Below are positions 52,332 to 60,749 of a stretch of 64,000 nucleotides of DNA, one piece after another. Made by a program: the position numbers and the translations under genes. The stretch is from Spirosoma radiotolerans (GTDB taxonomy: Bacteria > Bacteroidota > Bacteroidia > Cytophagales > Spirosomataceae). The stretch lies in contig NZ_CP010429.1 of NCBI RefSeq assembly GCF_000974425.1, positions 4,821,501-4,885,500 on the forward strand. Reading direction: 5' to 3'. The notes under the pieces are model-generated. The model was not told where the DNA came from and made no database searches. It saw only the letters and a program-made list of their open reading frames with translations. Each line of letters opens with the position of its first letter. Position 1 is the stretch's first letter.

Positions 52332-52348
52332 ACTTGACTTATCGGCGT

Positions 52349-53827
52349 ATGACCCGCGAACAACTTATTGGTACCATTGGCAGGAATGGCAAACGCATTC
52401 AGTTGCGGGGTACCGACCTGGCTAAATTTGACTTCAGCGGGCTCGACCTAACGGGGGCTGACCTTAGCTTTTCCAACCTCGGCAAAGCTAACTTTCGGGG
52501 GGCTATCCTCCGGCAGGTAAACCTGAGCTTTTCGAACCTGAGCGGAGCTGACTTCACAGACGCTGACCTCTACGAAGCCAATTTCAACTTCAGTTCGCTG
52601 GAAGATGTCAACTTGAGCGGAGCCAACGTTGAAGGAGCTTCATTTAATTTCTCGGGGCGCAGTAAGTACCGCCCCGAACCCACCAATATCCGGGAAGAGC
52701 CCATTACGCTGACGACCATTCTGCAAAAACCAGGATGGGGAACCCTTATCGGCGCCTTAATTGGTGCCTTGCTGGTGTATGGATGCAATGCCATCATTTA
52801 CTTTTCAGATTTAATTTTGAAGGCTGCTAACCCGCTGATGGTGGGTTTATATCAGTTCCTGATCACTCAGAACATGGTCGATGGAGCGGCCTGCTTTCTA
52901 ATAACCTGGGCACTTTCAGGCTGGCTGGCTCGTCAGTTTCGAGCCGTTTGGCCAAGGCATCTCATTATCACCATAAGCGTCATGTTCAGCATTCTCCTGA
53001 TTAATACGGCCTTGTATTATGCGTTGGGAAAGCCCTTTATCGACGCGCTGGCCAAGCTACCCAGCGGCATTGAACGTACGGCCGACTGGTATATTTACAT
53101 AGCCGGGGATCTGCTGGTTGCCAATGGTTTTCTATACGTACTGCAACAAGGACGGCAGTTGACGCGCAAACTGTCCGAACAGGAGTTTCAACTGCTCAAT
53201 CTGGAAAAGCTAAAGACCCGTGCCGAACTGGATGCGTTACAGGCCAAGATAAATCCGCATTTTCTCTACAATGCCCTCAACAGCATTGCCAGTTTGGTCC
53301 ACGAAGACCCCGACAAAGCGGAGGAAATGACGCTTTTGCTTTCCAAACTCTTTCGCTATTCGACCGGGCGCGATGGCGAGTTGTTTGCAACACTGGCCGA
53401 CGAACTGGAAATGGTCCGTACGTATTTGCAGGTGGAGAAGGTTCGGTTTGGTAACCGGCTTACGTTCAGTGTTGAAATCAGCGACCCGGCACTTAGTGAA
53501 CTTCGTCTGCCGCAATTCCTGCTGCAACCCGTTGTTGAAAATGCCATTAAACACGGCATCGCCAAGCGGGCTGACCAGGGTCGGATTGATGTTCGTATTT
53601 ATGAGAAAAACGGAGAATTACACCTTTGCGTCCATGATAATGGGCCCGCTTTCCCCGATGATATGAGCGGTGGGTATGGGCTGCGCAGCATCCAGGATAA
53701 GCTCAAACTTCTCTACGGCGATGAGGCCAAAGTTGAGTTACAAAACTGGCCCCTCAAACAGGTCTTGATTTCTATTTTGATGACGAAAATCCGGAGTGTT
53801 CGCGATGTTGAAACACCCAATGCTTAA
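52349..53827 (+). CDS. Pentapeptide-repeat / LytS-type sensor histidine kinase fusion
   Basis: From the ATG at 52349 the protein is 492 residues. Residues about 15-95 form pentapeptide repeats of the A(D/N)LxX type (LTGADLSFSNLGKANFRGAI, LYEANFNFSSLEDVNLSGAN), a right-handed beta helix likely in the cytoplasm. About four membrane helices follow (about 115-265; ALIGALLVYGCNAIIYFSDL, HLIITISVMFSILLINTALY). The kinase core has phosphorylatable H304 in INPHFLYNALNSIASLV, the DHp motif LLSKLFRYSTG, and the ATP-binding PVVENAIKHGI, VHDNGPAF and GYGLRSIQDKL. The response regulator gene follows 11 bases downstream. The ligand and the role of the beta helix are unknown. Confidence 0.88.
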   Translation: MTREQLIGTIGRNGKRIQLRGTDLAKFDFSGLDLTGADLSFSNLGKANFRGAILRQVNLSFSNLSGADFTDADLYEANFNFSSLEDVNLSGANVEGASFNFSGRSKYRPEPTNIREEPITLTTILQKPGWGTLIGALIGALLVYGCNAIIYFSDLILKAANPLMVGLYQFLITQNMVDGAACFLITWALSGWLARQFRAVWPRHLIITISVMFSILLINTALYYALGKPFIDALAKLPSGIERTADWYIYIAGDLLVANGFLYVLQQGRQLTRKLSEQEFQLLNLEKLKTRAELDALQAKINPHFLYNALNSIASLVHEDPDKAEEMTLLLSKLFRYSTGRDGELFATLADELEMVRTYLQVEKVRFGNRLTFSVEISDPALSELRLPQFLLQPVVENAIKHGIAKRADQGRIDVRIYEKNGELHLCVHDNGPAFPDDMSGGYGLRSIQDKLKLLYGDEAKVELQNWPLKQVLISILMTKIRSVRDVETPNA

Positions 53828-53838
53828 CCGAACAGATC

Positions 53839-54621
53839 ATGACACTTCCCTTCAAAACGATATTGATTGACGATGAATCGCTGGCTGTTAGCCGCTTGCG
53901 TCGCTTGCTGAACAAGCACCGCGACAGTATAGACGTTATTGGCGAAGCAGCCAATGGCGCCGAAGGCCTGACGCTCATTGAAAGCCTGCAACCTGATTTG
54001 ATTTTCCTGGATATTGAAATGCCGTTGCTAAATGGTTTCGAGATGCTGTCTCGCCTGACAACCATGCCGATGGTCGTGTTTGCCACCGCCTTTGATCAAT
54101 ACGCCATACGTGCCTTCGAAGAAAATTCCATTGATTATTTACTGAAACCGATCGAAGCCGAGCGGCTGGCCCGCACAGTCCAGAAAATCAGGACGCTGGT
54201 CGACCGGCAGGATATGGCACAACCCGCGGTTAACCCCATGTCGGAGAGTGTCATGCGCCTGTTGGCCCAAATGCAGCCGAAGAAAGAAATCTATTCGATC
54301 TCGGTGAAAACCGGCGAAAAGATCAAGCTGGTCCCCCTTTCCGACATTGCCTTTTTTGAAGCGGAAGATAAATATGTCTTTCTAGCAACCATGGACGGAC
54401 AAAAATTTCTGACGACGTATACGCTGACAACACTAAACGAGAAACTCCCGGACACGTTTGTGCGCATCAGCCGATCTGTAATGGTGAACCGGCACAAAAT
54501 TGCCGAAGTGCACCGGCATTTTGACGGCAAATTCCTGCTGGGCATGAGTGATAAAAAAGGAACAAAACTCACTTCTGGCAGTACCTACGGTGACACTGTC
54601 CGGCAACTACTGGAACTTTGA
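53839..54621 (+). CDS. LytTR family response regulator
   Basis: The 260-residue partner of the upstream kinase has a receiver domain (about 5-125) with the acidic pair DD (11-12), phosphoacceptor D58 in LIFLDIEMP and lysine in YLLKPIEA. A LytTR DNA-binding domain follows (about 150-255; KIKLVPLSDIAFFEAEDKYV, DTFVRISRSVMVNRHKIAEV). Phosphorylated dimers usually bind direct repeats upstream of target genes. The stop codon is 11 bases before the next start, so the small membrane protein is probably part of the same operon. Confidence 0.93.
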   Translation: MTLPFKTILIDDESLAVSRLRRLLNKHRDSIDVIGEAANGAEGLTLIESLQPDLIFLDIEMPLLNGFEMLSRLTTMPMVVFATAFDQYAIRAFEENSIDYLLKPIEAERLARTVQKIRTLVDRQDMAQPAVNPMSESVMRLLAQMQPKKEIYSISVKTGEKIKLVPLSDIAFFEAEDKYVFLATMDGQKFLTTYTLTTLNEKLPDTFVRISRSVMVNRHKIAEVHRHFDGKFLLGMSDKKGTKLTSGSTYGDTVRQLLEL

Positions 54622-57914: not shown

Positions 57915-57934
57915 CTTTCAAAATATTTTGAAAG
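57915..57934 (+). promoter_or_regulatory. Perfect 20-bp palindrome, candidate GbsR/MarR operator 1
   Basis: CTTTCAAAATATTTTGAAAG is fully symmetrical. Its right half contains a TTTTG whose TTTG (57927-57930) sits 20 bases before the -7 box TATATTTG, so a bound dimer would cover the -33 box. Half-sites TTTCA and TGAAA are eight bases apart, exactly as in the site at 58479-58496. Confidence 0.65.
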
Positions 57935-57950
57935 CTTAAAAACGATCATA

Positions 57951-57958
57951 TATATTTG
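57951..57958 (+). promoter_or_regulatory. -7 box TATATTTG of the regulator gene
   Basis: Exact TAnnTTTG with TTTG 20 bases upstream, the best full promoter in the window. It ends four bases before the ATG at 57963, so the transcript is probably leaderless or nearly so. Confidence 0.7.
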
Positions 57959-57962
57959 CCCT

Positions 57963-58463
57963 ATGACATTTGAAGAAGCTAAGGAGAAATTTATTCATAC
58001 GTGGGGAACATTAGCCACTCAATGGGGCATCAATCGTTCTATGGCCCAGTTACATTCCCTACTGCTGATCTCACCCGATGCGCTGGCCATCGAAGATATC
58101 ATGGAACAGCTACAAATTTCGCGGGGTAATGCCAGCATGAATCTTCGCGATTTGATGGACTGGGGCCTTATCTATAAACAGCTAAAGCCCGGCGAACGCA
58201 GGGAGTTTTTCATTGCAGAGAAAGACATTTGGAAAGTAGCCCGGCAGGTAGCCAAAGAACGCCGTCGACGGGAAATCACGCCTGTTGTAGAGGTCTTAAA
58301 TGAGCTTAAAAATATCCCTACCGATACCCCCGAAGCGCAGGAATTTCATCGGGTAATGACCGGGCTCAGTAATGTTGTTGGCTTTGCGGATAATACACTC
58401 AATGCAGTCATCAAGGCGGAAGAAAACTGGTTGGTGAGTCAGTTTCTGAACGTATTTCGATAA
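57963..58463 (+). CDS. GbsR/MarR family transcriptional regulator
   Basis: A 166-residue winged-helix protein opening MTFEEAKEKFIHTWGTLATQ, typical of GbsR-type regulators. The helix-turn-helix is in SPDALAIEDIMEQLQISRGNASMNLRDLMDWGLI, the wing in KQLKPGERREFFIAEKDIW, and a C-terminal helix with RRRREITPVVEVLNELKN helps dimerise. Characterised relatives sense small solutes. The gene's promoter carries a perfect palindrome, and a second similar site lies before the DCC-type gene 52 bases downstream, so it very likely represses both genes. Confidence 0.9.
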   Translation: MTFEEAKEKFIHTWGTLATQWGINRSMAQLHSLLLISPDALAIEDIMEQLQISRGNASMNLRDLMDWGLIYKQLKPGERREFFIAEKDIWKVARQVAKERRRREITPVVEVLNELKNIPTDTPEAQEFHRVMTGLSNVVGFADNTLNAVIKAEENWLVSQFLNVFR

Positions 58464-58478
58464 TTTTTTGCCTTTAAA

Positions 58479-58496
58479 TTTCAACTATTTCTGAAA
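58479..58496 (+). promoter_or_regulatory. Candidate GbsR/MarR operator 2 (TTTCA-N8-TGAAA)
   Basis: TTTCA (58479-58483) and TGAAA (58492-58496) have the same eight-base spacing as the palindrome at 57915-57934; 14 of 20 bases match overall. The site lies between the regulator stop and the DCC-type start. Confidence 0.55.
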
Positions 58497-58515
58497 GTTC
58501 AAAATACTAATAATC

Positions 58516-60113: not shown

Positions 60114-60205
60114 GGATCAGTAGTGAATTTTGTATCCCCGAAATAAGTCTAACCTTTCGCTATTCTACCGGGTTATAGTTTACCACAGCTAAACACACTT
60201 TGACT

Positions 60206-60451
60206 ATGACAACGCTAGAAAACAAGCCGTTACCTATGGATGCCGAAATAGTCGGTTCCAGAATAGGCCGCATTGATCCGAACCTATTCACGAATCAAAC
60301 AGATCTGGATGAAGATGATGACGAGTTAGTAGAGAGCGACTTCGACGAGGAGACCACGGATGAAGATGGCGATCCCACCGGCGAACACGATCACCACCAG
60401 GATGACAACTACGCCTTAGGCGGCCATGTAACCCGGTCAGGTGGCCTTTAA
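60206..60451 (+). CDS. Very acidic small protein, 81 aa
   Basis: The ATG at 60206 (after a TTG two codons earlier) opens MTTLENKPLPMDAEIVGSRI. The middle is Asp/Glu-rich (LDEDDDELVESDFDEETTDE) and the end has His/Asp repeats and Gly. No signal peptide or membrane segment is visible. I do not recognise the family. It is followed by another acidic small protein and a DoxX gene on the same strand, so the three may be one operon. Confidence 0.6.
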   Translation: MTTLENKPLPMDAEIVGSRIGRIDPNLFTNQTDLDEDDDELVESDFDEETTDEDGDPTGEHDHHQDDNYALGGHVTRSGGL

Positions 60452-60491
60452 CAATTCCAGAATTTTACCATTTCCGCTAAATTCCAACCAC

Positions 60492-60749
60492 ATGAACCCT
60501 AACGAAACGATTAAGTATGACCCTGCTGACGATGAAAATCAGGGCATAATGACCAAGATGATACAGGGCGAAAACGCCGGTGGTGGCGTAGCACAGACTG
60601 AGTACCTGAGTCCCGTCGTGAATCAGGGACCTGAGCCAGAAAAGGAAGAAGTCAATGATTCGGATACAGAAGCCAATGGCGTAAACGACGACATGCTGGC
60701 AGAAGAAGACGTTGAAGAGGGCGACATAGACGAGAGCGATGACGAATAA
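60492..60749 (+). CDS. Acidic small protein, 85 aa
   Basis: The ATG at 60492 begins MNPNETIKYDPADDENQGIM. The protein is strongly acidic, ending with VEEGDIDESDDE, with a Pro/Glu-rich middle and no signal peptide or membrane segment. The next start codon lies inside its last codons (60739), so translation of the DoxX gene is probably coupled to it. The family is not recognised. Confidence 0.6.
   Translation: MNPNETIKYDPADDENQGIMTKMIQGENAGGGVAQTEYLSPVVNQGPEPEKEEVNDSDTEANGVNDDMLAEEDVEEGDIDESDDE

Follow-up and report, generated by a model that had tools for sequence, protein, structure and literature searches.

The window analysed here, a stretch of 64,000 nucleotides from Spirosoma radiotolerans, contains a GbsR/MarR-type regulator gene with two sites of the form TTTCA-N8-TGAAA, one over the −33 region of its promoter and one in front of the next gene, and the GbsR-type repressor very probably binds both sites, holding down itself and the next operon until a small ligand releases it. 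According to this mechanism, a winged-helix repressor of the GbsR branch, presumed to be a dimer, would bind the motif at two places: at site 1 it would cover the −33 region of the regulator's own, probably leaderless, promoter, and at site 2 the start region of the next operon, which encodes a DCC-like membrane protein in the window; a small ligand would release it from both. A sequence-only reading of this DNA had the regulator repressing itself and the DCC gene. Recognition of both sites and action on both genes are supported by comparison, whereas repression, like binding by this particular regulator, its dimeric state, the ligand and the mode of action at site 2, is what we infer.

Two matching sites around a GbsR-type regulator gene

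As the sequence-only reading had described, a perfect 20-bp palindrome lies over the −33 box of the regulator gene and a second site, with equal half-sites and the same N8 spacing, precedes the next gene (Table 1).

Table 1. Features of the regulator locus (positions in the 64-kb window)
Feature	Position	Strand	Remarks
Putative operator site 1	57915..57934		Perfect 20-bp palindrome CTTTCAAAATATTTTGAAAG covering the −33 region of the regulator promoter
Putative −33 element TTTG within site 1	57927..57930	+	Bacteroidetes consensus as given in PMC6847099
Putative −7 box TATATTTG	57951..57958	+	Predicted transcription start at or beside the A of ATG
GbsR/MarR-type regulator, 166 aa, no cysteine	57963..58463	+	Pfam, phmmer, Foldseek
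Predicted recognition helix RGNASMNLRDLMDW (residues 54-67)	58122..58163	+	AlphaFold2 helix 54-67
T tract before site 2	58464..58469	+	Candidate promoter element and/or terminator tail
Putative operator site 2	58479..58496		TTTCAACTATTTCTGAAA, 19 nt 5' of the start codon of the next gene
GTTCAAAA after site 2	58497..58504	+	Matches the conserved extension (column frequencies over 119 site-1 and 91 site-2 copies); site 1 of the window has GCTTAAAA there
DCC-like thiol-oxidoreductase domain (DESCPMC) and helical second half, 255 aa	58516..59283	+	Gene behind site 2

The regulator matches Pfam PF12802 (MarR_2) with 28.1 bits, narrowly above the cut-off of 27, and its AlphaFold2 model (mean pLDDT of 89.2) contains the helices and strands of the winged-helix fold. 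The nearest solved structure, and best match in both sequence and fold, is Mj223 of Methanocaldococcus jannaschii (1ku9; phmmer 2.5e-15; Foldseek 9.2e-10, rank 1), which serves as structural template for GbsR proteins (PMC6207618). Mj223 differs in being archaeal and, in the account given of it in PMC7396694, has no known operator or function. The regulator belongs to the GbsR branch of the MarR superfamily; however, it scores 51.8 bits against the NCBIfam CudC equivalog NF047500, below the cut-off of 218, and has no neighbouring betaine genes, so that neither mark of the GbsR/OpuAR/CudC osmostress sub-group was found. MarR regulators that sense redox state through a reactive cysteine form the OhrR type. 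Cysteine is absent from the window regulator and from 114 of the 119 Bacteroidota regulators with site 1, this one included; direct thiol sensing is therefore unlikely, and direct redox sensing by the regulator, as part of the redox or solute-sensing module proposed earlier, is doubtful.

Site 1 is the only perfect palindrome of 16, 18 or 20 bp in the window. The pattern TTTCA-N8-TGAAA was found twice there against 0.07 expected, none of 100 shuffles reached two copies, and the motif arose 78 and 48 times when each of the two intergenic gaps was shuffled 200,000 times. These shuffles, together with the spacer controls below, reject chance or AT-richness as the source of the sites. Across the genome (7,029,352 bases) there are 19 exact copies versus 10 of the reversed control pattern, and 16 of the 19 fall inside frames of at least 80 aa, one of which (at 3100796) also lies 47-91 bp ahead of the next frame. 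A further copy, at 1973711 of the genome, sits between two converging frames. Only the two sites of the window are both intergenic and ahead of a gene, and a genome-wide regulon in S. radiotolerans, considered as a candidate, is unsupported with 2 of 19 exact sites so placed. The TIGR01777 gene elsewhere in the genome has no TTTCA-N8-TGAAA site, its best match agreeing in six of ten positions.

A short AT-rich motif with such genome counts, 17 copies of which are seemingly meaningless, could suggest that the palindromes are bound by another protein, or that they are chance AT-rich or RNA-level features unrelated to the regulator. We find this hardly credible in view of the fixed spacer and place, the tie to the regulator in many families, the different operators of paralogs and the footprint of a relative. 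An RNA-level role is further opposed by site 1, which is not expected in RNA because it lies upstream of the predicted transcription start.

Conservation of the sites across Bacteroidota

Lack of the motif beside the gene pair in relatives had been named beforehand as the outcome that would refute the proposal; the comparison was made, and it gave no refutation. A first sample comprised 62 related loci of named genomes (L041-L102), of which L102 was left out of the upstream count because it is a paralog with another operator, the count thus covering L041-L101. A class-wide profile search of 295 genomes detected the regulator in 98 of them (E up to 1e-15; 102 places), and 60 of these 102 places, hand-picked to span genera and for the most part among the first entries listed, form the second sample (L138-L197). 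In the first sample, 54 of 61 loci (54 of 62 with L102) carry the motif no more than 200 bp upstream of the regulator, and 38 of 61 carry it within 600 bp past the regulator stop; in the second sample, the counts are 49 of 60 and 39 of 60, respectively. Control spacers of 0-7 and 9-16 bases gave 0-1 matches upstream and 0-5 downstream, and letter shuffles at most one. In a set of 138 loci, composed of these 121 loci, eight further Spirosomataceae, loci L130-L137 and L102, site 1 is present in 119 and site 2 in 91, with nine matches in the remaining 732,895 bases.

The exact upstream site is missing in 18 of the 121 loci of both samples: 15 show neither site (six in the first sample and nine in the second) and three show site 2 only. 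The six of the first sample (L071, L094, L095, L097, L099 and L101) are mostly titled Saprospiraceae or Saprospirales; L092, which also belongs to Saprospiraceae, carries both sites.

Among the 103 loci with site 1, site 2 follows the direction of the next gene: it is present in 72 of the 86 with a co-directional next gene versus 2 of the 17 others (Fisher 1.9e-8), and these two may be errors of the simple gene caller. Fourteen of the 86 co-directional loci do not show site 2. In six, the next gene starts within 17 bp of the regulator stop, which would make a second switch superfluous; the other eight are not covered by such close coupling. Emticicia and relatives (L056-L067) have site 1 only, and their next gene of at least 90 aa is convergent. 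As far as can be read from sequence comparison, these loci establish the two sites, their placement and their tie to the regulator and to a co-directional next gene.

Predicted promoter anatomy and possible action at the second site

In the window, the TTTG of site 1 is located 20 bp before the −7 box TATATTTG, a spacing that fits the published Bacteroidetes promoter consensus, TTTG/TANNTTTG (PMC6847099). Across the 119 site-1 loci, a −7-like box (TAnnTTT-like) begins 15-17 nt after site 1 in 87, and none was detected in 23. The distance from the end of this box to the start codon is 4 nt in 59 loci and 3 nt in 11 (70 of the 119). Since transcription is reported to start 4-5 nt past the −7 box (PMC6847099), the regulator mRNA is predicted to be leaderless, a trait that would be conserved in many loci and unusual: in F. 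johnsoniae, transcripts are described as mostly carrying leaders (PMC6847099).

Emticicia and relatives show a longer regulator leader: a conserved CTTACGTGC occurs in 11 of 11 loci (L056-L066), a few bases past the predicted transcription start and some 30-50 bp ahead of the start codon adopted for the regulator. L067 and L137 show TACGTGC and TTACGTGC, respectively, at the same place.

The two sites differ in their cores, with TTTG in the right half of 78 of 119 site-1 copies versus 4 of 91 site-2 copies. Such a bias is expected if site 1 doubles as the −33 element. It could also be taken to indicate a dual regulator that represses itself at site 1 and activates the operon from site 2; nevertheless, site 2 most often lies 17-20 nt from the start codon that follows (35 of 91 loci), too near for ordinary activation, and GbsR, OpcR, OpuAR, CydE and CioR are all presented as repressors in the accounts consulted, which makes this possibility very unlikely.

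Upstream of site 2, a TTTT run is found at 8-20 bp in 76 of 91 loci, versus 8 of 91 at a control place. A hairpin-like stem precedes the T tract in 30 of the 91, that is, in 23 of the 40 loci where site 2 lies at least 30 bp from the regulator stop versus 7 of the 51 others. A clean −7 box inside site 2 was considered and found to be weak (TAnnTnTG in 14 of 91 loci), and is now a mere possibility; within 30 nt after site 2, TAnnTTTG occurs in 1 of 91 loci.

Promoter occlusion is the preferred mode of action at site 2 because the T tract and terminator-like hairpins precede it. The same repressor and sites would also be compatible with site 2 acting as a roadblock to transcription coming from the regulator promoter, as described for B. 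subtilis GbsR, whose operators lie downstream of the transcription start (PMC7396694). A roadblock would fit two negative findings, as neither site 2 nor the sequence after it shows a convincing −7 box and the window has no terminator-like hairpin ahead of site 2; by contrast, the frequency of the T tract, and of hairpins where site 2 is at some distance from the stop, argue for a separate promoter. We regard the roadblock as a possible but rather doubtful reading.

Genes behind the second site

The product of the gene behind site 2 shares the N-terminal DxxCxxC motif of DCC1-like thiol-disulfide oxidoreductases (PF04134), with D8, C11, P12 and C14 conserved without exception in the 11 sequences aligned. 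It differs from them by its score, below the Pfam cut-off (E 0.0012, 20.5 bits against a cut-off of 27.8), and by an additional helical C-terminal half with five predicted helices of 14-28 residues past residue 128, which reads as a hydrophobic, membrane-type region. Foldseek returned nothing below 1e-3 for its fold, giving only weak glutaredoxin-, thioredoxin- and glutathione-transferase-like matches. DUF393 has been reported beside heliorhodopsin (PMC8612252), and a DCC protein in plastoglobules (PMC12587418).

The genes behind site 2 vary among loci. They were grouped in single-linkage clusters, each named from a single representative, and the DCC counts are slightly low because tblastn finds a DCC-like gene in 11 of the 62 loci L041-L102. 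Among the 39 site-2 loci of the class sample, the first gene encodes a small membrane protein in 13, a methyltransferase in six, a DCC-like protein in three, a TIGR01777-type protein in three, a desaturase in one and another protein in 13. Anywhere in the gene run of these 39 loci, TIGR01777-type genes are found in 23, DCC-like in 11 and DUF2071 in eight. In the 38 site-2 loci of named genomes, DCC is first in seven and anywhere in 10. The representative of the TIGR01777 cluster obtained 248.9 bits, above the family cut-off of 207.35. These counts make the GbsR-DCC pair one local version of a wider arrangement, and the earlier view of DCC as the characteristic partner did not hold. No glycine betaine synthesis or uptake genes were found adjacent to the window regulator, whose neighbours are an M23 peptidase gene and the DCC-like gene, or among the operon families named; nor were cyd genes found among the families named from cluster representatives.

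One TIGR01777-type protein (L052:4874-5851) matches the model of the thylakoid protein ThyD, NF050030, with 174.8 bits, under the cut-off of 400, and is a lead to a membrane function.

A rival reading is a compact two-gene redox module special to the GbsR-DCC pair, in which the regulator senses the thiol or redox state and the DCC protein responds. It would agree with the DCC-like CxxC protein that follows the regulator in the window and in the loci detected by tblastn, and with cydDC, annotated as thiol reductant exporters, after the same motif in some Pseudomonadota. The module is nonetheless unlikely, given the few site-2 loci in which DCC comes first, the general lack of cysteine in the regulators, and payloads that are freely exchanged. 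A respiratory or thiol-related signal is left possible by the cydDC, cydAB and DCC payloads. Repression of the regulator gene and the next operon from the two sites, whatever the payload, is the reading that we retain.

In the same neighbourhood, positions 60200-60749 contain two small, very acidic open frames of 83 and 102 aa, and comparable frames, small and acidic, are found close to the regulator in several Spirosoma genomes.

Operator variants in paralogs

Paralogs with 43-50% identity to the window regulator show a different operator at the equivalent place. The form TTTCC-N10-GGAAA was found in L102 (the same locus as L122), L123, L124, L125, L127 and L129, and with one mismatch in L126 and L128, while L118-L121 show CTTTCA-N8-TGGAAG. 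A DCC- or TIGR01777-type gene is present in the run behind 11 of 12 paralogs.

Of 128 exact-motif loci, 122 have M at residue 59 of the predicted recognition helix; all eight TTTCC-type loci have L there, and residue 60 is V in the four paralogs L118-L121. M59 is also found in 10 of the 14 loci where no operator was recognised. In L119, a TGGAA-type paralog, the second site is an exact TTTCA-N8-TGAAA; L179, a further TGGAA-type locus, has an ordinary helix and adjoins an exact-motif locus in the quick tree, on which all clade statements rest. The TTTCC type forms one clade in this tree and L118-L121 another; because operator types follow clades, the joint change of helix and operator rests on few events. 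In the sequence comparison of these loci, a different operator accompanies a different recognition helix in the paralogs, and the TTTCC, TGGAA and TTTCTG types provide natural operator-specificity variants for studying DNA recognition by GbsR proteins.

Pseudomonadota relatives and known GbsR-type systems

Xia et al. footprinted a repressor of the GbsR type, CydE of Alishewanella sp. WH16-1, on TATTTCAGAAATTTCTGAAAGTTCA (PMC6096048). This footprint contains TTTCA-N8-TGAAA followed by GTTCA, as often found after the Bacteroidota sites; a second CydE footprint is reported on a sequence unlike the motif, and repression by CydE is described in the same paper (PMC6096048). Among loci with the motif, CydE is, to our knowledge, the only regulator for which binding and repression are experimentally known.

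A plasmid search gave relatives of the regulator in 179 records, of which 15 were hand-picked across genera. The exact motif lies within 250 bp upstream in nine of these 15 proteobacterial relatives (L203, L204, L206, L207, L211-L213, L215 and L216), the distance being counted from the start of the match in the unannotated L206, L209, L212, L214 and L216; L210 has an upstream site with one mismatch. In all six annotated loci with the exact motif (L203, L204, L207, L211, L213 and L215), the regulator is followed by cydAB or cydDC. No upstream match better than eight of ten motif positions was found in L208 and L217. A perfect palindrome, TTTCTGTCATGACAGAAA, is located near the start in L205, L209 and L214, from Methylobacterium and Novosphingobium plasmids, and overlaps the annotated start in L205.

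CydE and CioR of Chromobacterium violaceum are, as described, GbsR-type repressors of their own operons, and both control cytochrome bd operons; the comparison of operators concerns CydE, no binding-site sequence of CioR having been found in the accounts consulted. They differ from the present system in that the regulator forms one operon together with the cytochrome bd genes, whereas the present one has two like sites and a payload of DCC-like, TIGR01777-type or small membrane proteins. The window thus has the TTTCA-N8-TGAAA operator of the CydE/CioR sub-group with a DCC-like next gene in place of adjoining cytochrome bd or cydDC genes. B. subtilis GbsR and OpcR and B. infantis OpuAR have in common with the window regulator the family, the predicted fold (Mj223) and repression (PMC6207618, PMC7396694), and autoregulation, likewise proposed here, is reported for GbsR and OpcR of B. 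subtilis (PMC6207618, PMC7396694). The published B. subtilis GbsR operator differs, with half-sites 4 bp apart and downstream of the start (PMC7396694); moreover, GbsR, OpcR and OpuAR are reported to control osmostress genes, with choline or betaine as the ligand of GbsR and OpuAR.

The regulator family and the operator are of known kinds. Neither a paper on a Bacteroidota regulon of this regulator nor binding or expression data for any Bacteroidota relative were found in the open-access literature, and a search by title and start of abstract gave no TIGR01777/DCC/DUF2071 regulon, with work on Avibacterium biofilm and Listeria FruR naming TIGR01777. The module had been called undescribed: this stands for the Bacteroidota regulon in searchable papers, but the operator had already been footprinted for CydE. 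The survey of GbsR proteins, where it deals with Bacteroidetes neighbourhoods, draws no consistent picture from them (PMC6207618). For this branch, an operator is now at hand, along with a promoter layout and a set of neighbours that both recur, which makes the question of its role directly testable. The poorly characterised DCC-like, TIGR01777, DUF2071 and SRPBCC families, and small membrane proteins that match no Pfam family, are also tied to one regulator.

We tentatively suggest, as a conjecture of limited probability, an old plug-in repressor-operator cassette, in which both phyla, Bacteroidota and Pseudomonadota, would have retained regulator and operator but exchanged the genes under control: cytochrome bd or CydDC in Pseudomonadota, and DCC-like, TIGR01777-type, DUF2071, SRPBCC and small membrane proteins in Bacteroidota. 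If the sensor kept its signal, the Bacteroidota genes would answer the same respiratory or thiol-related membrane stress as cytochrome bd and CydDC, and DCC, TIGR01777 and the small membrane proteins would thereby obtain a testable physiological role.

Two further observations concern single loci. In L205, the regulator with TTTCTGTCATGACAGAAA is followed by a DUF4166 gene and an epimerase-DUF4166 fusion, likely another regulator-payload pair. In the window, positions 52334-54621 encode, as read from the translation, a predicted histidine kinase whose N-terminus resembles pentapeptide repeats and, after it, a LytTR-like response regulator.
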